Shown here: positions 20,002-28,331 of the stretch, piece by piece
Numbering within the stretch: the stretch's first letter is position 1
Layout of the letters: every line of letters begins with the position of its first letter
Source of the DNA: an uncultured Eubacteriales bacterium
GTDB taxonomy: Bacteria; Bacillota; Clostridia; Christensenellales; Aristaeellaceae
Direction of reading: 5' to 3'
DNA length: 42,857 nucleotides
Assembly: GCA_900317565.1 (NCBI GenBank)
Contig: ONHI01000010.1
Location: 1 to 42,857, forward strand
Translations under genes and position numbers: made by a program
The notes under the pieces: model-generated
Told to the model about the DNA's origin: nothing
What the model saw: only the letters and a program-made list of their open reading frames with translations
Databases searched by the model: none

Positions 20002-20066
20002 ATGTATTGGGTATTGGCGGAATCGACACTGGCAGGCGGATGCGGAAAGGATATCGGTGCGACAGC

Positions 20067-20630
20067 ATGCGGACGGACAGGCGGGTACAAAAGACGCACG
20101 CCGCGATCATGCAGGCGTTTGAAAAGCTGCTGATGAAGAAGAGCTACGACGATATCACGATACAGGATATCATCGACGAGGCGAACATCGGCCGCAGCAC
20201 CTTCTATGCCCATTTCGAGACCAAGGACAGCCTGCTGGAGGCGATCTGCAGCGGCCTTTTCGACCACATATTCGCCGAGCACCTGAACGCGGAGCCGGGG
20301 CACGACTTCTCCGGCAGCGAGGAGGACGTGGCGGCGAAGATCATCCACACGCTGTACCACCTCCAGGAGGACCGCAAGCGGCTGTCCCGCATATTCTCCT
20401 GCGAGAGCGCGGGGCTGTTCTGGGAATACTTCCAGCTGCCCTTTTCCACCTTCATCCAGCGGGAGATCGTGCCCGCGCTGACGGCGGACATCGTGGATGT
20501 GCCAAGGGATTACGTGGTGGATTTCATCTGCAACGCCTTCACGTCCACGGTGAAGTGGTGGTTCTACCAGGGGTTGAAGGCGACGCCGGAGGAAGTGAGC
20601 GGGTATTTCCTGCGCATGACGCTGCGGTAG
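20067..20630 (+). CDS. TetR/AcrR family transcriptional regulator
   Basis: This 187-residue protein has the N-terminal TetR helix-turn-helix with recognition region ITIQDIIDEANIGRSTFYAHF (about residues 30-50) and a C-terminal helical ligand domain ending FICNAFTSTVKWWFYQG, typical of the C-terminal TetR_C-type (DhaS-like) group. Two starts are possible, 20040 and 20067. I chose 20067 because MRTDRRVQKTHAAI is the usual family opening. The stop is TAG. It precedes the bioY/tetrapyrrole operon but is separated from it by a stable hairpin, so control of that operon is possible but unproven. Confidence 0.88.
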   Translation: MRTDRRVQKTHAAIMQAFEKLLMKKSYDDITIQDIIDEANIGRSTFYAHFETKDSLLEAICSGLFDHIFAEHLNAEPGHDFSGSEEDVAAKIIHTLYHLQEDRKRLSRIFSCESAGLFWEYFQLPFSTFIQREIVPALTADIVDVPRDYVVDFICNAFTSTVKWWFYQGLKATPEEVSGYFLRMTLR

Positions 20631-20718: not shown

Positions 20719-21312
20719 ATGACGCAGACCAGGAACAGGAAGATGCGCACCATCGACATCGTGCTGTGCGGCCTCTTCGCGGCGCTCATCGCCGTGGGGG
20801 CATTCATCAGGATCACCATCCCCACCGAGCCCTATCCGTTCACATTTTCGCTGCAGTGGCTGTTCGTGCTGCTGGCCGGGCTGCTGCTGGGCGCGAAGAT
20901 GGGCGCCATGAGCGTGGCGGCCTATGTCATCATCGGCCTGGCCGGCGTGCCGGTGTTCGTGCACGGCGGCGGCCCGCAGTACGTCTTCCGGGCGGGCTTC
21001 GGCTTTCTGCTGGGGTTCATACTGGCGGCCTTCGTCATCGGCCTGCTGGCCGGAGGGACCCGGCAGAAGGCCGGCGCGGCGCTCCTCCGGCTGATGCTCG
21101 CGGCGCTGGCGGGCCTGGTGGTCTACTATTTCATCGGCATCGCGTACTATTACTTCATGTATTCCTGTGTGCTGGAGACGCCCGCGGAATGGGGCCTGGG
21201 CATCGCCATCGTCGGCTGCATGAGCACCTTCCTGCCAGATCTGGGGCTCTGCCTGGTGGCTGCGCTGCTGTCCCTGCGGCTGCGCCCGGCCCTGGAGCGC
21301 GCGCGGATATGA
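20719..21312 (+). CDS. bioY: Biotin transporter S component BioY
   Basis: This 197-residue protein has six membrane segments and the BioY family marks: RITIPTEPYPFTFSLQWLFVLLAG near the N-terminus, then GLLLGAKMGAMSVAAYVIIGLAGVPVF, with FVHGGGPQYVFRAGFGFLLGF as the biotin-pocket region. It is the substrate-binding unit of an ECF transporter; the EcfA/T energizing module is not here. AAGGAG lies 8-9 bp before the ATG. hemC begins 13 bp downstream, so a biotin importer is transcribed with tetrapyrrole genes. No biotin-repressor palindrome is obvious upstream. Confidence 0.9.
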   Translation: MTQTRNRKMRTIDIVLCGLFAALIAVGAFIRITIPTEPYPFTFSLQWLFVLLAGLLLGAKMGAMSVAAYVIIGLAGVPVFVHGGGPQYVFRAGFGFLLGFILAAFVIGLLAGGTRQKAGAALLRLMLAALAGLVVYYFIGIAYYYFMYSCVLETPAEWGLGIAIVGCMSTFLPDLGLCLVAALLSLRLRPALERARI

Positions 21313-21325
21313 CGGAGCGGCTATT

Positions 21326-22210
21326 ATGAAGAAGAAGATGATCGTGGGCAGCCGCGAGAGCCAGCTCGCGGTGGTGCAGAGCATGACGCTGGTGGCGCAT
21401 CTCAGATCGGCGCACCCGGAAACTGAAGCGGAGCTCTTGACGATGAAGACCACCGGCGATAAGATATTGGACAGGACGCTGGACAAGGTGGGCGGCAAGG
21501 GGCTGTTCGTGAAGGAGCTGGACATCGCCCTGCGGGAGCGCCGGGCGGACGTGACCGTGCACAGCCTGAAGGACATGCCCATGCAGACGCCGGAAGACCT
21601 GCCGATACTGTGCTGCTCCCGCCGGGAGGACCCCCGGGACGCACTGGTGCTGCGGGCGGGCGTCGGCATGAAGCCAAATCTCATCATCGGCTCCTCCAGC
21701 CTGCGGCGGGCCCTTCAATTGAAGGCGCTCTTCCCGGAATGCGAGGTCAGGCCGGTGCGGGGCAACCTGCAGACCCGGCTTCGCAAGCTGGACGAGGGGC
21801 AGTTCGACGCGCTGGCGCTGGCGGCGGCGGGTTTGAAGCGCATGGGGCTGGAGGGCCGCATCAGCCGGTATTTCAGCGTGGACGAGATCATCCCCGCCGC
21901 GGGCCAGGGCATACTGGCCGTGCAGGGGCGGGCGGACTTCGACCGGACGCTGCTGGAGGGCTACGCCGACGCCGACGCCTGGTGCGCCGCGACGGCGGAG
22001 CGTGCCTTTGTGCGGGCGCTGGATGGCGGCTGCACGTCGCCGGTGTGCGCCCACGGGGCGCTGGAGGGCGACAGTATCCACCTGACCGGGTTGTATTACG
22101 ACGCATCGAACGGCAGCTGGCGCAAGGGCTCCGTCGACGGTCCCCGGGGTGAGGCCGAACGGCTGGGCATACAGCTCGCGCGGGCGCTGCGGGACGGAAG
22201 GGAGGCGTGA
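21326..22210 (+). CDS. hemC: Hydroxymethylbilane synthase (porphobilinogen deaminase)
   Basis: This 294-residue enzyme joins four porphobilinogens into hydroxymethylbilane on a dipyrromethane cofactor. Visible marks are the N-terminal VGSRESQLAVVQ, VHSLKDMPM with the catalytic Asp region, GSSSLRRALQL, VRPVRGNLQTRLRKLD, IIPAAGQGILAVQ and the cofactor cysteine in LDGGCTSPV (about residue 237). All key parts are present. It is the second gene of the operon, ending 3 bp before the cobA-hemD start. Confidence 0.96.
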   Translation: MKKKMIVGSRESQLAVVQSMTLVAHLRSAHPETEAELLTMKTTGDKILDRTLDKVGGKGLFVKELDIALRERRADVTVHSLKDMPMQTPEDLPILCCSRREDPRDALVLRAGVGMKPNLIIGSSSLRRALQLKALFPECEVRPVRGNLQTRLRKLDEGQFDALALAAAGLKRMGLEGRISRYFSVDEIIPAAGQGILAVQGRADFDRTLLEGYADADAWCAATAERAFVRALDGGCTSPVCAHGALEGDSIHLTGLYYDASNGSWRKGSVDGPRGEAERLGIQLARALRDGREA

Positions 22211-22213
22211 ACC

Positions 22214-23728
22214 ATGGCAGGCAAGGTTTGGCTGGTCGGGGCAGGTCCCGGCGACGCGGGGCTGATGACCCTCAAGGGCCGGGAGGTGCTAAGGCAGGCC
22301 GAGGTCGTGGTCTACGACGCCCTGGTGTCCGGCGGCGTGCTGGCCATGATCCCCGAGGGTGCGAAGCGGATCTACGCTGGCAAGCGCTCCGGCAACCACT
22401 TCCTCCGGCAGGAGGAGACCAATAAGGTGCTGCTGGAGGAGGCGCTGGCGGGCAGGCGCGTGGTGCGCCTGAAGGGCGGCGACCCCTTCGTGTTCGGGCG
22501 CGGCGGCGAGGAGCTGGAGCTGCTGGTGGAGCACGGCGTGCCCTTTGAGATCGTGCCGGGCGTCACCAGCGCCTTCGCGGTGCCGGCCTACAGCGGCATC
22601 CCCGTGACCCACCGGGATTACTGCGCCTCGGTGCACATCATCACCGGGCACCGCCGGGCGGACCACAGCTACGACATCGACTTCGACGCGCTGGTGCGCA
22701 CAAGGGGGACGCTGGTGTTCCTGATGGGCATCGCCGCGCTGCCGGACCTGATGAACGGCCTGCTGGCGGCGGGCATGGACCCGGATATGCCCGCGGCGGT
22801 GCTGGAGCGCGGCACCACGTCGAGGCAGCGCCGGGTGAGCGCCACGGTGGGCACACTGGAGCGGGTGTGCGCGCAGAGGGTCATACAGACCCCGGCGATC
22901 ATCGTCGTGGGAAGGGTGTGCGCCCTCGCCGACAGCTTCGGCTGGGCGGAGAAGCGGCCCCTGGCGGGCGTGCGGGTGCTGGTCACCCGGCCCCGGGAGC
23001 TGGTCTCCACGCTGTCGGACATGCTGCGGGAGAGAGGCGCGGAGGTGGTGGAGCTGCCCGCCATCCGCACCGTGCCGGTGCGGGACATGACGAATGTGGA
23101 CGCGGCCATCCAGCGCCTTTCCAGGGGCGGCTACGACTGGCTGGCGTTCACCAGCCCCAGCGGCGTGGGCATATTCTTCGACCGGCTGATCGCGCTGCGC
23201 GACCTGCGGGCGCTTCATGGCGTGAAGCTCGCCGCCATCGGCCAGGGCACGCAGAAGGCACTGCTCAAATACGGCTTGCGGGCGGACTTCCTGCCGTCCG
23301 TGTACGACGGCGAGACGCTGGGCCGGGAGCTGCGGGACGTCTGCGCGCCGGGCTCCCGCATACTCATCCCCCGGGCCGCCATCGGCAATCCCGAGCTGAT
23401 CGCGGAACTGGAGCAGGGCGAGCAGCTGAGCGTCGACGACGTCGCCACCTACGACACGGAATACGCCGTCGCCCCGGACGCCGAGGGCCTGTTGTTGGCC
23501 GATGTGGACTTCGCTGTGTTCACCAGCGCCTCCACGGTGCGGGGTTTTGCCGCCGCCGTGCCGGACGCGGATCTCTCGAAGGTCAACGCCGTCTGCATCG
23601 GCAGGCAGACCGCCGCCGAGGCGCAGAAGCGCGGCATGCGGACGTGGATCGCGGAAAAGGCGACGCTGGAGGCGCTTGTAAAACAGGTAGAGGAAGCGGC
23701 GAAGGAAATATGCATTAATGAGGAATGA
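22214..23728 (+). CDS. cobA-hemD: Fused uroporphyrinogen-III C-methyltransferase / uroporphyrinogen-III synthase
   Basis: This 504-residue two-enzyme chain has residues 1 to about 245 as the SAM-dependent methyltransferase: GAGPGDAGLMTLKG, VVRLKGGDPFVFGRGGEE, VPGVTSAFAVPAYSGIPVTHR. It adds methyls at C2 and C7 of uroporphyrinogen III to give precorrin-2. Residues about 255-500 are the synthase that closes hydroxymethylbilane to uroporphyrinogen III (VLVTRPRE, WLAFTSPSGVGIFF, AAIGQGTQKAL, FTSASTVRGF). This fusion is common in Clostridia and channels the product of hemC straight to precorrin-2. Confidence 0.96.
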   Translation: MAGKVWLVGAGPGDAGLMTLKGREVLRQAEVVVYDALVSGGVLAMIPEGAKRIYAGKRSGNHFLRQEETNKVLLEEALAGRRVVRLKGGDPFVFGRGGEELELLVEHGVPFEIVPGVTSAFAVPAYSGIPVTHRDYCASVHIITGHRRADHSYDIDFDALVRTRGTLVFLMGIAALPDLMNGLLAAGMDPDMPAAVLERGTTSRQRRVSATVGTLERVCAQRVIQTPAIIVVGRVCALADSFGWAEKRPLAGVRVLVTRPRELVSTLSDMLRERGAEVVELPAIRTVPVRDMTNVDAAIQRLSRGGYDWLAFTSPSGVGIFFDRLIALRDLRALHGVKLAAIGQGTQKALLKYGLRADFLPSVYDGETLGRELRDVCAPGSRILIPRAAIGNPELIAELEQGEQLSVDDVATYDTEYAVAPDAEGLLLADVDFAVFTSASTVRGFAAAVPDADLSKVNAVCIGRQTAAEAQKRGMRTWIAEKATLEALVKQVEEAAKEICINEE

Positions 23729-23776
23729 GGAACACACTCTAATTTAAGTATAACGACTGTGAGAGGAAGCGAGATC

Positions 23777-24469
23777 ATGAAACGCGGTATCGCATACGGC
23801 GTGGGCGTCGGCCCGGGCGACCCGGAGCTGATGACCTACAGGGCGGCGCGGCTGATCCGGGAGAACGACGTGATCGCCGTGCCCGGCAGGGACCCGAAGG
23901 AGGCCGTGGCCTACAGGATCGCGGCGGGCGTGGTGCCGGAGATCGCGGAGAAGCAGCTGGTGCCCATCCACATGCCCATGGTCAAGGACCGGGAGCTGAT
24001 CGACCGGGAGCACCGGAAGGCCGCGAAGCTGGTGGAGGACATACTGGATACGGGCAAGAACCTGGTGTACATCACCCTGGGCGACCCGACGATCTACTGC
24101 ACCTTCAGCTACATCCAGCACTACCTGGAGGCGGACGGCTACCAAGTGGAGCTGGTGCCGGGCATCAGTTCCTTCTGCGCCGCGGCGGCGCGGCTGAACC
24201 TGCCGCTGGTGGAGTGGGACGAGCAGCTGCACGTGGTGCCCGCGGTCCACAGGCTGGACCACGCGCTGGAGCAGCCGGGCACCTATGTGCTGATGAAGTC
24301 CGCCAGCCAGATGGCCGCCGTGAAGGAGATGCTCAGGAAGAGCGGGCGGGATGTCCAAATGGTGGAGAATTGCAGCATGGAGAACGAGAAGCTGTACCGG
24401 AGCCTGGACGAGATCCCCGACGACGCGGGCTACTTCTCGCTGATCATAGCCAAGGAAGATCATGATTGA
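23777..24469 (+). CDS. cobI: Precorrin-2 C20-methyltransferase (CobI/CbiL)
   Basis: This 230-residue tetrapyrrole methylase has the family N-terminus YGVGVGPGDPELMTYRA, then the SAM-site YITLGDPTIYCTFSYI and VPGISSFCAAAA. GDPTIYST-like plus the long middle region match CobI/CbiL, which methylates C20 of precorrin-2 (or Co-factor II) in B12 ring synthesis, rather than CobM/CbiF. The start is ATG; an in-frame GTG 18 bp upstream lacks a better site. The end overlaps the ABC ATPase start by 8 bp. No other corrin-ring enzyme is in the window. Confidence 0.92.
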   Translation: MKRGIAYGVGVGPGDPELMTYRAARLIRENDVIAVPGRDPKEAVAYRIAAGVVPEIAEKQLVPIHMPMVKDRELIDREHRKAAKLVEDILDTGKNLVYITLGDPTIYCTFSYIQHYLEADGYQVELVPGISSFCAAAARLNLPLVEWDEQLHVVPAVHRLDHALEQPGTYVLMKSASQMAAVKEMLRKSGRDVQMVENCSMENEKLYRSLDEIPDDAGYFSLIIAKEDHD

Positions 24470-25295
24470 GCTAAAAAACCTGACCAAGAAGTTCGACGAC
24501 TTCACCGCGGTGGATCACCTGAGCCTGCGCATCGAAACCGGGGAGTTCTTCGGGCTCCTGGGCCCAAACGGCGCGGGCAAGACCACCACCATCTCCATGA
24601 TGTCCACGGTGCTGCTGCCCACGGAGGGCGAAATATGGATCGACGGGCAGAGGCTGGACCGCAAGGCCAGCGCGCAGAAGCGCAAGCTGTCGGTCATCAC
24701 CCAGGAATACTCCATGCGGCAGGACATGAACATGGACGAGGTCATGGAGTATCAGGGGCGGCTGTACTTCCTGCCCCGGAAGGTCATCAAACAAAGGACC
24801 GACGAGCTGCTGGCGTTCGCCGGCCTGATCGAATATCGCCGCCGCACGGTGCGGCACCTGTCCGGCGGCATGAAGCGCAAGCTGATGATCTGCCGGGCGC
24901 TGATGATCGAGCCGGAGATACTGCTGCTGGACGAGCCCACGGCGGGCATGGACGCGCTGTCAAGGCGGCAGATGTGGAATCTGCTGCGGCGCGTGAACGG
25001 CGATAAGATGACCATCGTGCTGACCACCCACTACATCGAGGAGGCCCAGGCGCTTTGCGGCCGCGTGGCGCTGATCAACCAGGGGCGGCTGCAAAAGCTG
25101 GACAGCCCTGAAAACCTGATCCACGAGCTGGGCGCGTTCGCCGTGGACGAGACCTCGAACGACAGCCTCGTCAGCCGGTATTTCCACGACCGGGACGACG
25201 CCATCGCCTACCTTGCAAGGGCGGGCAGGGACGCGGCGCTGCGGGCCACGACGCTGGAGGACGTGTTCGTGGATGTGGCGGGGAGGAAGCTCTGA
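24462..25295 (+). CDS. ABC transporter ATP-binding protein (DrrA/NodI-like)
   Basis: This 277-residue protein has Walker A GPNGAGKTT (about 36-44), signature LSGGMKRKL (about 135-143), Walker B LLLDEPTAGMD (about 153-163), the switch histidine in TTHYIEEAQ and a C-terminal dimerization tail ending TTLEDVFVDVAGRKL. This C-terminal form is typical of ABC-2 exporters. It overlaps cobI by 8 bp, so it is coupled to tetrapyrrole synthesis, and it is followed after a hairpin by its permease. Confidence 0.93.
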   Translation: MIELKNLTKKFDDFTAVDHLSLRIETGEFFGLLGPNGAGKTTTISMMSTVLLPTEGEIWIDGQRLDRKASAQKRKLSVITQEYSMRQDMNMDEVMEYQGRLYFLPRKVIKQRTDELLAFAGLIEYRRRTVRHLSGGMKRKLMICRALMIEPEILLLDEPTAGMDALSRRQMWNLLRRVNGDKMTIVLTTHYIEEAQALCGRVALINQGRLQKLDSPENLIHELGAFAVDETSNDSLVSRYFHDRDDAIAYLARAGRDAALRATTLEDVFVDVAGRKL

Positions 25296-25305
25296 GCATT
25301 ATGGA

Positions 25306-25325
25306 CGGGGGAGCAAGCTCCCCCG
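25306..25325 (+). promoter_or_regulatory. Intra-operon GC hairpin between ABC ATPase and permease
   Basis: CGGGGGAGC and GCTCCCCCG form a 9-bp perfect stem with a 2-nt loop directly after the ATPase stop, with no U run. It is likely an mRNA processing or stability element that sets different subunit levels. Confidence 0.5.
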
Positions 25326-25393
25326 CCATTGCCACCCCCGCCGCGCATGTCGCCGGGACCGATTAAAGCAACGATCGACAGGTATGTGAGATT

Positions 25394-26125
25394 ATGGGCA
25401 TCATAACCGTTCTTTGGGAAAAATGGGTGGAGTTCAAGCGGGACTTCTTCAAGATCACCGTCGCGGCGATGATCTCCCCGCTGATGTACCTCATCATATT
25501 CGGCATGGGCATACAGACCACGTCCCACGGGGAGCCCTACCTGCACTTCCTGATCCCGGGCATCGTGGCCATGGCGACCATGACGGGCTCCTTTTCCGCC
25601 ATCGCCCAGAACATGAGCGTGCAGCGGCTGTATGAAAAGGCGCTGGACCAGATCATGGTGTCGCCCACGCCGCTGTGGCAGTTCATACTGGGCCAGGTGA
25701 TCGGCGGCAGCCTGCGGGGCATGTACGCGGGCGGCATCATACTGCTGCTGACCTCCCCCATCCGCACGGGCCTGATCTTCAACGGCGTGTCGGTGCTCAT
25801 CATGTTCCTGAACGGCACGGTGTTTTCCACCATCGCGCTGGTGATGTCCTTCCTGGCCAAGAGCTACACCGACGCGCCGCGCTTCACCTCCTACATCATC
25901 ATGCCGATGTCGTTTCTGTGCAACACCTTCTTCTCCACCGACCAGATGCCCGCCGGGTTCAGGCAGGTGATCGCGCTGCTGCCCCTCTCCCAGGCCAGCG
26001 GCATGATCCGCGCCATATCCAACGGCGAAGCGCCGGGGTGGTTCGGCTTCGCGGTGCTGCTGGCCTACCTGATCGCGTTCGGCGCGATATCGGTCATATT
26101 CATCTACCGCAAGAAGAATCTTTGA
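25394..26125 (+). CDS. ABC-2 type transporter permease (DrrB/NodJ-like)
   Basis: This 243-residue protein has six membrane segments. The ABC-2 pattern is visible: an amphipathic N-terminus (EKWVEFKRDFFKI), then PLMYLIIFGMGI, the middle cytosolic helix region QRLYEKALDQIMVSPTP and the late loop STDQMPAGFRQVIALLPLSQA that marks NodJ/DrrB permeases. It pairs with the upstream ATPase. Most homologues export small hydrophobic molecules, polysaccharides or lipids. Given the neighbours, a tetrapyrrole or metal-linked cargo is conceivable but not shown. The ribosome site is weak (GTGAG). Confidence 0.9.
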   Translation: MGIITVLWEKWVEFKRDFFKITVAAMISPLMYLIIFGMGIQTTSHGEPYLHFLIPGIVAMATMTGSFSAIAQNMSVQRLYEKALDQIMVSPTPLWQFILGQVIGGSLRGMYAGGIILLLTSPIRTGLIFNGVSVLIMFLNGTVFSTIALVMSFLAKSYTDAPRFTSYIIMPMSFLCNTFFSTDQMPAGFRQVIALLPLSQASGMIRAISNGEAPGWFGFAVLLAYLIAFGAISVIFIYRKKNL

Positions 26126-26137
26126 TGAGGTGCCGGG

Positions 26138-27220
26138 ATGAAGCGATTTGCGTTATTGACGGGGATCCTGCTGGCGGTCGCACTGCTGTGCCAGTGCGCG
26201 TCGGCGGTGACGGTGCTCACGCCGACGCGGGAGGACTATGCCGACCGGCTCGCGAAGGCCCGGAGGGCCATCCGGAACGAGAAGGTCGGCCGCTACGGCA
26301 TGGCGCCCATCTACGGCAGGGACATTGCGGACGGCGATTACCCCGTGCAGGTGCAGTCCAGCTCGCCGTTCTTCAAGATCGTCGAGGCGGAGTTGACCGT
26401 GCGGGGCGACGACATGACGGCCAGCATCACCATCGGCAGTCGCAGCTACCTGTACGTCTATATGGGCTCGGCGGAGCAGGCGGGCAGCGCCCCGGAGGGA
26501 GACTGGATCCCCGGGGACGAGGGACAGCGCTTCACGGCGTTCACCATTCCCGTCCCGGCGCTCAACGCGCCCTTTGAATGCGCGGCCTACAGCAAAAACC
26601 GGCAGATCTGGTACGACCGACAGCTGCTGATCGACGCCTCGGCGCTGCCGGAGGGCGCGCTGGCCTTCGAGCTGCCCGACTATGATCTTGTGGAAAAGGC
26701 CGTCATAGACTTTGAACCGAACGGCTTGGCGGCGCTGGACGACGATGAGGCGGAAGATTCCAAGCCCGTGGAATTGGAGCCGGTCTCCCTGCCGCGCTCC
26801 GACGGGGAGTATTCCATAGAGGTCAACCTGGCGGGCGGCAGCGGCAGGGCGAACGTCAGCTCCCCCACGCTGCTGATCGTGCGGGACGGCAGGGCCTGGG
26901 CCCGCCTGTTGTGGAGCAGCCCCTACTACGATTACATGGTCATCGGCGACACCGTCTATGAAAACCTGACCACGGACGGCGGCAATTCCACCTTCGAGAT
27001 CCCCGTCACCGCGATGGACGCGCCGATGGAGGTCATCGCGGACACCACCGCCATGGGCGATCCCATCGAGATCGAATACACGCTGACCTTCTATACCGAG
27101 TCCCTGGGCGACAAGAGCCAGATCCCCCAGGAGGCCGCGAAGAAGGTGCTGTATATCTCGCTGGCGATCATCGTCGCGGGCGGCGCGCTGAACCATTTTG
27201 TGAAAAAGAAGAGGAAGTAA
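26138..27220 (+). CDS. Exported membrane-anchored protein with two NEAT-like repeats
   Basis: This 360-residue protein has a signal peptide (1-23, ending ASA). The first beta-rich repeat (about 66-170) opens DGDYPVQVQSSSPFFKIVEAEL. The second (about 222-325) opens DGEYSIEVNLAGGSGRANV and continues LIVRDGRAWARLLWSSPYYDYM and IEIEYTLTFY. A membrane helix (about 335-352) with a KKKRK tail anchors it to the outside. The pattern of opening strand, V-x-DG-x-A, and a closing strand of Tyr/Phe resembles heme-binding NEAT domains, but the YxxxY heme motif is not clear. It sits between an ABC permease and a siroheme enzyme, so surface binding of heme, a corrinoid or a metal is a reasonable guess only. 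Confidence 0.7.
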   Translation: MKRFALLTGILLAVALLCQCASAVTVLTPTREDYADRLAKARRAIRNEKVGRYGMAPIYGRDIADGDYPVQVQSSSPFFKIVEAELTVRGDDMTASITIGSRSYLYVYMGSAEQAGSAPEGDWIPGDEGQRFTAFTIPVPALNAPFECAAYSKNRQIWYDRQLLIDASALPEGALAFELPDYDLVEKAVIDFEPNGLAALDDDEAEDSKPVELEPVSLPRSDGEYSIEVNLAGGSGRANVSSPTLLIVRDGRAWARLLWSSPYYDYMVIGDTVYENLTTDGGNSTFEIPVTAMDAPMEVIADTTAMGDPIEIEYTLTFYTESLGDKSQIPQEAAKKVLYISLAIIVAGGALNHFVKKKRK

Positions 27221-27222
27221 TC

Positions 27223-27696
27223 ATGGCGGAGTATCCCCGTTTTCCGATGTTCGTCGACCTCTCCGCGAAGCATGTGGTCGTGGTCGGCGCGGGCAAGATC
27301 GCCGCCCGCCGCGTGGCCGTGCTGGCGCAGTTTACGCCCCGCATCACCGTCATCGCGCCAAAGGTCCACGCAGATATCGAAGCGCTGGCCGCCGAGGGCA
27401 GGGTGTGCCTCGTCCGAAGGGCCTATGATATGACGGACATCAGCGGCGCGGACATCGTGCTCGCCGCCACCGACGACGCCGAGCTGAACGCCACCATCTG
27501 CGACGATTGCCGGCTTCGCAACATCCCCGTGAACGTTTCAAGCGACAGGACGCTGTGCGATTTTTACTTCCCGGGCATCGTCCGGGAGGGCGATCTCGTG
27601 GTCGGCGTGACCGCCGGCGGCGAGGACCACACACGTGCCAGGCACGTCACCGGGCAGATCAGGAATGTCCTGAGCGAGGATAGGGAAACAGTATAA
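27223..27696 (+). CDS. Precorrin-2 dehydrogenase (CysG N-domain/Met8-like)
   Basis: This 157-residue protein has an NAD-binding Rossmann fold with GAGKIAARR (about 23-31) and the family segment DIVLAATDDAELNATI, then NVSSDRTLCDFYFPGIVREGDLVVGV. It oxidizes precorrin-2 to sirohydrochlorin. It is shorter than the roughly 200-residue forms: the C-terminal part of CysG-B/SirC is nearly absent, so ferrochelatase activity is doubtful. It starts 2 bp after the preceding stop and is the last gene of the operon before a strong terminator. Confidence 0.92.
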   Translation: MAEYPRFPMFVDLSAKHVVVVGAGKIAARRVAVLAQFTPRITVIAPKVHADIEALAAEGRVCLVRRAYDMTDISGADIVLAATDDAELNATICDDCRLRNIPVNVSSDRTLCDFYFPGIVREGDLVVGVTAGGEDHTRARHVTGQIRNVLSEDRETV

Positions 27697-27730
27697 ACTA
27701 AACCTCTATCCCGGGATGGCACAAGTGCCG

Positions 27731-27778
27731 CCCGACTACTTGGAAGAAAAATCCAATCAGTCGGGTCTTTTCTTTTTG
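27731..27778 (+). terminator. Intrinsic terminator of the tetrapyrrole operon
   Basis: Outer stem CCCGACT / AGTCGGG, inner stem TTGGA / TCCAA, then TCTTTTCTTTTT. Confidence 0.9.
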
Positions 27779-27807: not shown

Positions 27808-28029
27808 TCAGTCGATCAGCCTTTGCCGCATACCCATTTCCCGCTCTGGCTGAGAATCAAAGAGCCGACAACGCTTGGGTGTATACGCAAGGCTTTCAAT
27901 GGCGTCAGCGATGCGGTTATACTGCCCCAAGGCCGTATCAGGAACCTGGAGATCGAGAGCAATGTAATTGTAGATGCCCTCCATATCGTCCAGTGCCTTG
28001 TCGGTGATTTTCACGCTGTATTGATTCAT
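27808..28029 (-). pseudogene. ParE/RelE-type toxin, C-terminally truncated
   Basis: The frame codes for 73 residues of the RelE/ParE fold: MNQYSVKITDKALDDMEGIY start, YNRIADAIESL helix, FDSQPEREMGMRQRLID. Family members run on for about 25-30 residues after this point, with a strand pair (VFYIV.., VVRVLYSRRD-like) that carries active-site and core residues. Here TGA follows RLID at once, and the sequence beyond runs into the operon terminator. The gene is therefore probably inactive or a shortened variant. It overlaps the antitoxin by 4 bp (ATGA), the usual antitoxin-first order. Confidence 0.8.
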
Positions 28030-28331
28030 GAATGTTGGCTCCTGAATCTTTCAAATGCAGCAGAGGCGTCCTGGACATTGCCTCTCACCATATCATCATA
28101 TCCCGCCTGTAATTCGGCGCGCAGTTGATCCGTGGTCATTGCGTCTGCGTTGATGGACGCAGGGGCCTTGGGAAGCGCAACAGAAAAGGGGATACCACCA
28201 GTCAGGGATATCTGTCGGAGGTACATATCAATCGCCGTGGCCATAGGAATGCCCAGTTGTTTAAGCACATCCTCCGCCTGCTTTTTCACGGAAGGATTCA
28301 CGCGAAGATTCATGGTTACGGATTTTTCCAT
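28026..28331 (-). CDS. RelB/DinJ family antitoxin
   Basis: This 101-residue protein has the N-terminal ribbon-helix-helix VTMNLRVNPSVKKQAEDVLKQ, then the DinJ box IPMATAIDMYLRQI and GGIPFSVALP. The C-terminal helix that wraps the toxin (about 65-101) is present. AGGAG precedes the ATG. Its promoter overlaps an inverted repeat, so it probably represses itself. With the toxin truncated, it may be a leftover of a decayed module. Confidence 0.88.
   Translation of the reverse strand: MEKSVTMNLRVNPSVKKQAEDVLKQLGIPMATAIDMYLRQISLTGGIPFSVALPKAPASINADAMTTDQLRAELQAGYDDMVRGNVQDASAAFERFRSQHS

Follow-up and report, generated by a model that had tools for sequence, protein, structure and literature searches.

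In the 42,857-nucleotide stretch of DNA analysed here (the window; contig ONHI01000010.1 of assembly GCA_900317565.1, an uncultured Eubacteriales bacterium), an operon at positions 20719–27696 joins enzymes of tetrapyrrole synthesis to an ATP-binding cassette (ABC) transporter of the ABC-2 type and to a surface protein with two predicted NEAT domains. We propose, with a probability of roughly 45%, that this operon is the maker side of a system in which precorrin-2-derived tetrapyrroles are taken up at the cell surface and cobalt is inserted outside the cell. The proposal draws on gene content, linkage, predicted signal peptides and the apparent absence of hemC and cobA from a group of relatives (the takers), all read from the sequences. 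Takers encode enzymes of the later corrin steps and an exported cobalt chelatase, commonly with NEAT proteins and an importer in the same gene run.

The operon lies on the forward strand. It opens with bioY (20719–21312; PF02632, 108 bits), encoding a BioY-family S component of energy-coupling factor transporters, and continues with hemC for hydroxymethylbilane synthase (21326–22210; TIGR00212, 285.7 bits), a cobA-hemD fusion for uroporphyrinogen-III C-methyltransferase and synthase (22214–23728; TIGR01469, 305 bits, and PF02602) and cobI/cbiL for the C20-methyltransferase (23777–24469; TIGR01467, 206 bits). Genes for a DrrA/NodI-like ABC ATPase (24462–25295; PF00005), an ABC-2 permease (25394–26125; PF01061) and the 360-residue surface protein (26138–27220), which has a leader, the two NEAT-fold domains and a C-terminal membrane anchor, are followed by one for a precorrin-2 dehydrogenase of the CysG N-terminal type (cysG-N, 27223–27696; TIGR01470, 114.5 bits). 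All four TIGR matches exceed their cut-offs. The gene content and frames given by an earlier sequence-only reading were borne out by these profile matches, by the coordinates and by an 8-bp overlap of cobI with the ATPase gene; only between the ATPase and permease genes is the spacing loose (98 nt). Closure of the operon by a terminator also held up: an intrinsic terminator-like hairpin with a T-run lies on the forward strand at about 27730–27777 (−21 kcal/mol, z −2.9), its stability was equalled by 3 of 200 shuffles, and it is absent from the listing of a consensus terminator scan. By established pathways, the enzymes of the operon lead to sirohydrochlorin or to its C20-methylated form, factor III. 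That no further corrin enzyme is encoded here agrees with the open reading frames of the window; later cbi genes lie on another contig of the genome, C194.

The gene order is not a product of chance, because it recurs in relatives. Scanning one genome per species, we obtained ten loci in nine genomes (L009–L018), whose titles name Clostridiales, Clostridia or Bacillota metagenome-assembled genomes (MAGs) of the RUG/RGIG series and, in three cases, sheep, goat or buffalo gut. Judging by the named relatives, mostly from the ruminant gut, the window bacterium is probably a gut inhabitant as well. Together with the window, L060, L063 and L117, these loci form a set of 14. In 14 of 14 a NEAT protein adjoins the ABC pair or is separated from it by one gene, CbiK (in L060 and L117 the NEAT gene is on the other strand), and cobI adjoins the pair or stands one gene off in 12, the exceptions being L017 and L018. 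That is, the transporter is conserved together with tetrapyrrole enzymes, as had been supposed. Permease orthologues at E below 1e-100 were present in 4 of the 391 genomes of the window's class (the window's own genome, G000, included), in addition to the ten named loci. L063 has the order hemB, hemL-like, hemC, cobA-hemD, cobI, ATPase, permease, CbiK, NEAT, cysG-N, and a hemL-like gene is also found immediately 5' of hemC in L009 and L016.

For L017 and L018, ATPase and permease are 80–82% identical and the NEAT protein is 55% identical; here the ABC pair adjoins cysG-N-like and FecB/FecCD/FecE genes, in genomes where hemC and cobA were undetected. Such loci, like the retention of the NEAT partner throughout the set, would suit an ABC-2/NEAT pair that works on the uptake side, importing outside tetrapyrroles or clearing them from the membrane, with no export of the cell's own. 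We regard this as unlikely, given that biosynthetic clusters make up 12 of the 14 loci and that DrrAB/NodIJ-type relatives are exporters by general knowledge of the family; the ATPase and permease of the window match the ABC ATPase and ABC-2 families and also TIGR01188, TIGR01247 and TIGR01291, all below the curated cut-offs.

As a member of the conserved core, bioY was rejected, being linked in only 4 of the 14 loci (window, L011, L060 and L117; the L010 stretch ends too soon upstream to judge). The loci that have it nevertheless span two families, that of the window and that of L060/L117. In L060 and L117 the BioY-like gene stands in one run with cysG-N and hemC (in L060 also with cobO), and its product may have a substrate other than biotin. 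On the 3' side of the ABC/NEAT group in L017, L018 and L063 we noted, by eye and with phmmer, a CsoR-like gene and a copper-type P-ATPase, neighbours that suggest a link with copper stress. One MAG (G392) holds two versions of the operon, L010 with an inserted truncated CbiK and L013 without it, through either duplication or a mixed bin.

Assignment of the surface protein to NEAT by sequence failed: it was unmatched in Pfam at E ≤ 1 and in NCBIfam at E ≤ 0.001, and a ten-sequence profile did not find NEAT among PDB sequences at E ≤ 10. Predicted models, on the other hand, bore out the suspected resemblance. The model of the whole protein had a mean predicted local distance difference test score (pLDDT) of 65 (mostly over 80 within domain 1); its best Foldseek matches included IsdH, IsdB and IsdX1, and every one of the 12 matches at E ≤ 0.001 was a NEAT protein. 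Modelled alone, domain 2 (pLDDT 78) best matched the NEAT domains of IsdX1, IsdX2 and Hbp2. Both domains (about residues 49–175 and 213–328; leader and C-terminal anchor were assigned by eye) matched NEAT structures with a probability of 1.00, single-domain template modelling scores of about 0.6 and identities of up to 17%. Both repeats are predicted, then, to adopt the NEAT beta-sandwich fold. Domain 1 carries the motif WY[DN][RH] in 35 of 36 segments (WYQH in the other), a count that is not independent as the segments were gathered by motif search; the L109 protein, with WYPR, falls outside it. Many relatives and most taker proteins have PHxI[DE]Y in domain 2, where the window reads PIEIEY, with Ile at the His position. 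We presume that these positions may correspond to the haem-ligating YxxxY motif.

NEAT structures in the PDB are mostly binders of haem or haemoglobin. This favours an account in which an ordinary B12 locus is split in two, the transporter and NEAT protein serve haem or iron, and exported CbiK removes iron from haem, a role suggested for IhtB of the Porphyromonas Iht system (excerpts of PMC10913741). Two FecB-type relatives also match IsdE weakly (3.4e-08 and 1.1e-04, far below the cut-off). We consider a haem or iron role rather doubtful in view of the neighbouring genes and of the genes missing from takers, as follows.

A search with the NEAT alignment, from which L011 was omitted (stop codon within the stretch), matched 22 of the 391 class genomes (G000 included), and 20 of the 22 have a strong cbiD versus 103 of 391 overall (5 of 108 CbiD matches, with E 1e-34 to 1e-45, were taken as paralogues and excluded from the count). 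We fetched 20 neighbourhoods from 18 of the 22 genomes (G001, G232, G250 and G377 are not among them). Corrin-pathway genes were found in 15 of the 20, which supports the supposed tie to surface handling of tetrapyrroles and counts against haem or iron; in L049, L054, L057, L066 and L068 the only partners were CbiK-, FecB-, FecCD- or FecE-like. CbiK and a FecB/FecCD/FecE importer are common in these neighbourhoods, with L062 showing a typical order: CbiK, NEAT 1, NEAT 2, FecB, FecCD, FecE, CbiA, cbiC, D, F, G, H, J-E-T. CbiK is fused to NEAT in L058, L059 and L066, and fusions of NEAT with a FecB-type protein occur in four loci, recognised by Pfam for L049 and L058 and by similarity for L055 and L056.

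CbiK with a predicted signal peptide was found in 26 of 31 NEAT-positive genomes (25 called by script, including one that a contig end truncates, and G399 by eye) versus 5 of 60 NEAT-negative genomes examined; among the NEAT-positive ones it was not found in G000, G001, G215, G250 and G377. CbiK matches of some sort occurred in 85 NEAT-negative genomes; the 60 are those that remained after 25 with short, weak, partial or stop-containing matches had been set aside. Genomes holding both CbiK types were counted as cytosolic. For L071 and L084 the script chose an upstream start and likely leaders were assigned by eye; L072 (contig C16 of G295), where an in-frame upstream hydrophobic stretch lacks a signal-like start, was scored as cytosolic. 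A lipobox was found by script in 16 of the 25 exported proteins, and seven (from G097 and six window-type relatives) resemble plain Sec leaders. GHG and GDHA motifs, which we take to hold the His pair of a class II chelatase, occur in all 24 complete script-called exported CbiK of NEAT-positive genomes. Class II chelatases use a pair of this kind (excerpts of PMC7689651). The window-type relatives G391–G397 each have an exported CbiK and also a copy without a signal, and in the six with the region fetched (L109–L114) the exported one adjoins a NEAT gene. A separate CbiX as hidden cytosolic chelatase was rejected, since in all 29 genomes CbiX matches were confined to CbiK frames. Three genomes (G022, G096 and G360; loci L133, L130 and L152) are NEAT-negative and hemC-negative and also encode an exported CbiK; they may use another receptor.

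hemC was not detected in 15 of 29 NEAT-positive genomes (16 of 31 when G001 and G250 are added), and CobA over the cut-off was missing from the same 15. In nine of these, CbiL over the cut-off was not found either, so those takers would need a post-CbiL product, of the kind that the window operon could supply. As a control we used 98 of the 103 class genomes with strong cbiD, omitting five under 90% complete: hemC was missing from 12 of 20 NEAT-positive versus 11 of 78 NEAT-negative genomes (Fisher p 7e-5). Among these 98, genomes with exported CbiK only were hemC-negative in 14 of 16 cases, versus 6 of 58 with cytosolic CbiK (p 8e-9, phylogeny ignored). G255 and G313 have exported CbiK only yet are hemC-positive, and 24 genomes showed neither type, three of them without hemC. 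If the system served haem or iron, the genomes negative for hemC and cobA would hold cbi genes without a substrate, and the association of exported-only CbiK with a lack of hemC argues against such a role as well.

The window's own genome, G000 (3.55 Mb, 89.8% complete), carries cbiF, cbiG, cbiH, a cbiJ-E-T fusion, cbiC and cbiD on contig C194, where cbiD (L007:8109–9252, minus strand) is spread over two frames that overlap, apparently through a frameshift or an assembly error. The alternative offered by the sequence-only reading, a B12 locus in two parts, is thus true for the ring enzymes. That reading had accepted as grounds against itself a complete B12 pathway at another site, provided that relatives showed no linkage of the ABC pair, or a surface protein without a NEAT-like fold; ring enzymes do lie elsewhere, while the pair proved to be linked and the fold is predicted. 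G000 has one copy of CbiK, on contig C264, without a signal peptide (cytosolic type); an MmeI-like gene adjoins it. The genome also encodes a FecB-type protein with a fused NEAT domain (L049), FecCD and CbiK being unmatched within the 16 kb fetched. Cobalamin riboswitches were not found at the gathering threshold in the window or in the first 20 kb of C194.

The NEAT proteins and transporter might instead import Co(II) itself, no tetrapyrrole being involved, in the manner of CbtJKL, a known BtuF-like cobalt ABC importer (excerpts of PMC7689651). CbiM was unmatched in 21 of the 29 NEAT-positive genomes, as this would lead one to expect. It would leave the exported chelatase and the genomes lacking hemC and cobA unexplained, CbiM matches do occur in G000 (contigs C129 and C232), and we judge it quite improbable.

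Under the reading that we favour, the window operon would be the front half of the anaerobic B12 pathway (step order as in the excerpts of PMC7242693), as far as sirohydrochlorin or factor III, plus a surface tetrapyrrole module; we read it as the maker side because it couples ring synthesis with an ABC pair of exporter type and with a NEAT protein. A methylated isobacteriochlorin would most likely be passed out by the ABC-2 pair to the two-NEAT protein anchored in the membrane. Sister genomes encode, at other sites, exported CbiK together with NEAT proteins; this CbiK would add cobalt outside, and a NEAT-FecB/FecCD/FecE importer would bring the cobalt complex back to the Cbi enzymes. Relatives without hemC and cobA would retain the uptake half only and take up precursors that others make; the simplest account of their gene content is that they capture a methylated tetrapyrrole from the surroundings, insert cobalt at the surface and import the complex. 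The ligand, the extracellular cobalt insertion, the direction of export and the trade are what we infer. A stronger version, possible if somewhat unlikely, is one of public goods: sirohydrochlorin or factor III, secreted by makers, would serve as a metallophore that captures cobalt, CbiK at the surface would load the metal outside the cell, NEAT proteins and FecBCD would import the complex, and bacteria lacking hemC and cobA, and often cbiL, would live on the precursors of others.

Several observations weigh against maker-side export with surface uptake. G398 and G399 (completeness unknown) have ABC-2/NEAT genes with hemC and cobA undetected, a poor fit for a pure exporter. Four of the eight class genomes with NEAT, cbiD and hemC (G113, G250, G295 and G313) gave no permease match at E ≤ 1e-30; therefore not every maker has this pump. 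The CbiK encoded within the ABC-pair run is without a signal peptide (L011, L018, L060, L063 and L117) or truncated (L010), an exported CbiK was not found in the 89.8% of G000 that is covered, and the CbiM matches in that genome count here too. The association of NEAT with missing hemC is weaker by genus (p 0.017), the p-values and counts ignoring phylogeny. Among genomes with cbiD but without hemC, six encode a cytosolic CbiK, and G001, G081 and G361 showed neither type. Haem, finally, could itself be the NEAT ligand.

Immediately 5' of the operon, a TetR-family gene (20007–20630, forward strand; PF00440) encodes a candidate regulator. On the 3' side of the operon lies a RelB/DinJ-family antitoxin gene (28026–28331, reverse strand).

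Among open-access titles and abstract openings, we found none describing a NEAT/CbiK/sirohydrochlorin system like the present one. Roper et al. are said to have raised a B12 'enigma' in P. gingivalis in 2000, and Lobo et al. reportedly described two CbiK proteins of Desulfovibrio in 2008. The clusters bear on a puzzle, namely that some bacteria keep a corrin pathway yet are unable to make precorrin-2 (P. gingivalis, and the salvagers in the excerpts of PMC6461909). They supply candidate genes for capture of the missing ring at the surface, for cobalt loading, for import and for export by makers, so that the question of the missing ring can now be tested gene by gene. If our proposal is true, half-built rings would be part of B12 cross-feeding, and cobalt insertion would be possible outside the cytoplasm.

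Salvagers of tetrapyrrole precursors that lack early steps are known, with dependence on 5-aminolevulinic acid verified (Shelton et al., excerpts of PMC6461909). Like the takers, they have corrin genes without early tetrapyrrole genes, and they are mostly Firmicutes and host-associated; the phenotype verified there is the 5-aminolevulinic acid dependence, however, and those excerpts name no importer for later precursors. CbtJKL is likewise a binding-protein ABC importer linked to B12 synthesis, but it transports Co(II), and the excerpts of PMC7689651 mention neither NEAT nor an exported chelatase. With the Isd/NEAT haem-uptake systems of Gram-positive bacteria our loci share the predicted fold, membrane or lipoprotein anchors and, in takers, a FecB/FecCD-type importer, whereas the sequences are too distant for Pfam or a PDB-sequence profile and the genes sit with cobalamin genes. 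The nearest precedent is Iht of Porphyromonas. In P. gingivalis it comprises the TonB receptor IhtA, the CbiK-like lipoprotein IhtB and the ABC importer IhtCDE, and its proposed role is to obtain iron from haem (excerpts of PMC10913741 and PMC13227078). Its outer-membrane TonB-dependent receptor would not be expected in a Gram-positive lineage, and the excerpts do not mention NEAT domains, an ABC-2 pump or any connection with cbi genes for Iht. Both systems nevertheless combine an exported homologue of CbiK and an ABC importer of the binding-protein type, P. gingivalis is reported to be without precorrin-2 synthesis (excerpts of PMC10913741 and PMC6461909), and an Iht-like set of exported CbiK and FecBCD-type importer is present in taker loci such as L062 and L064.

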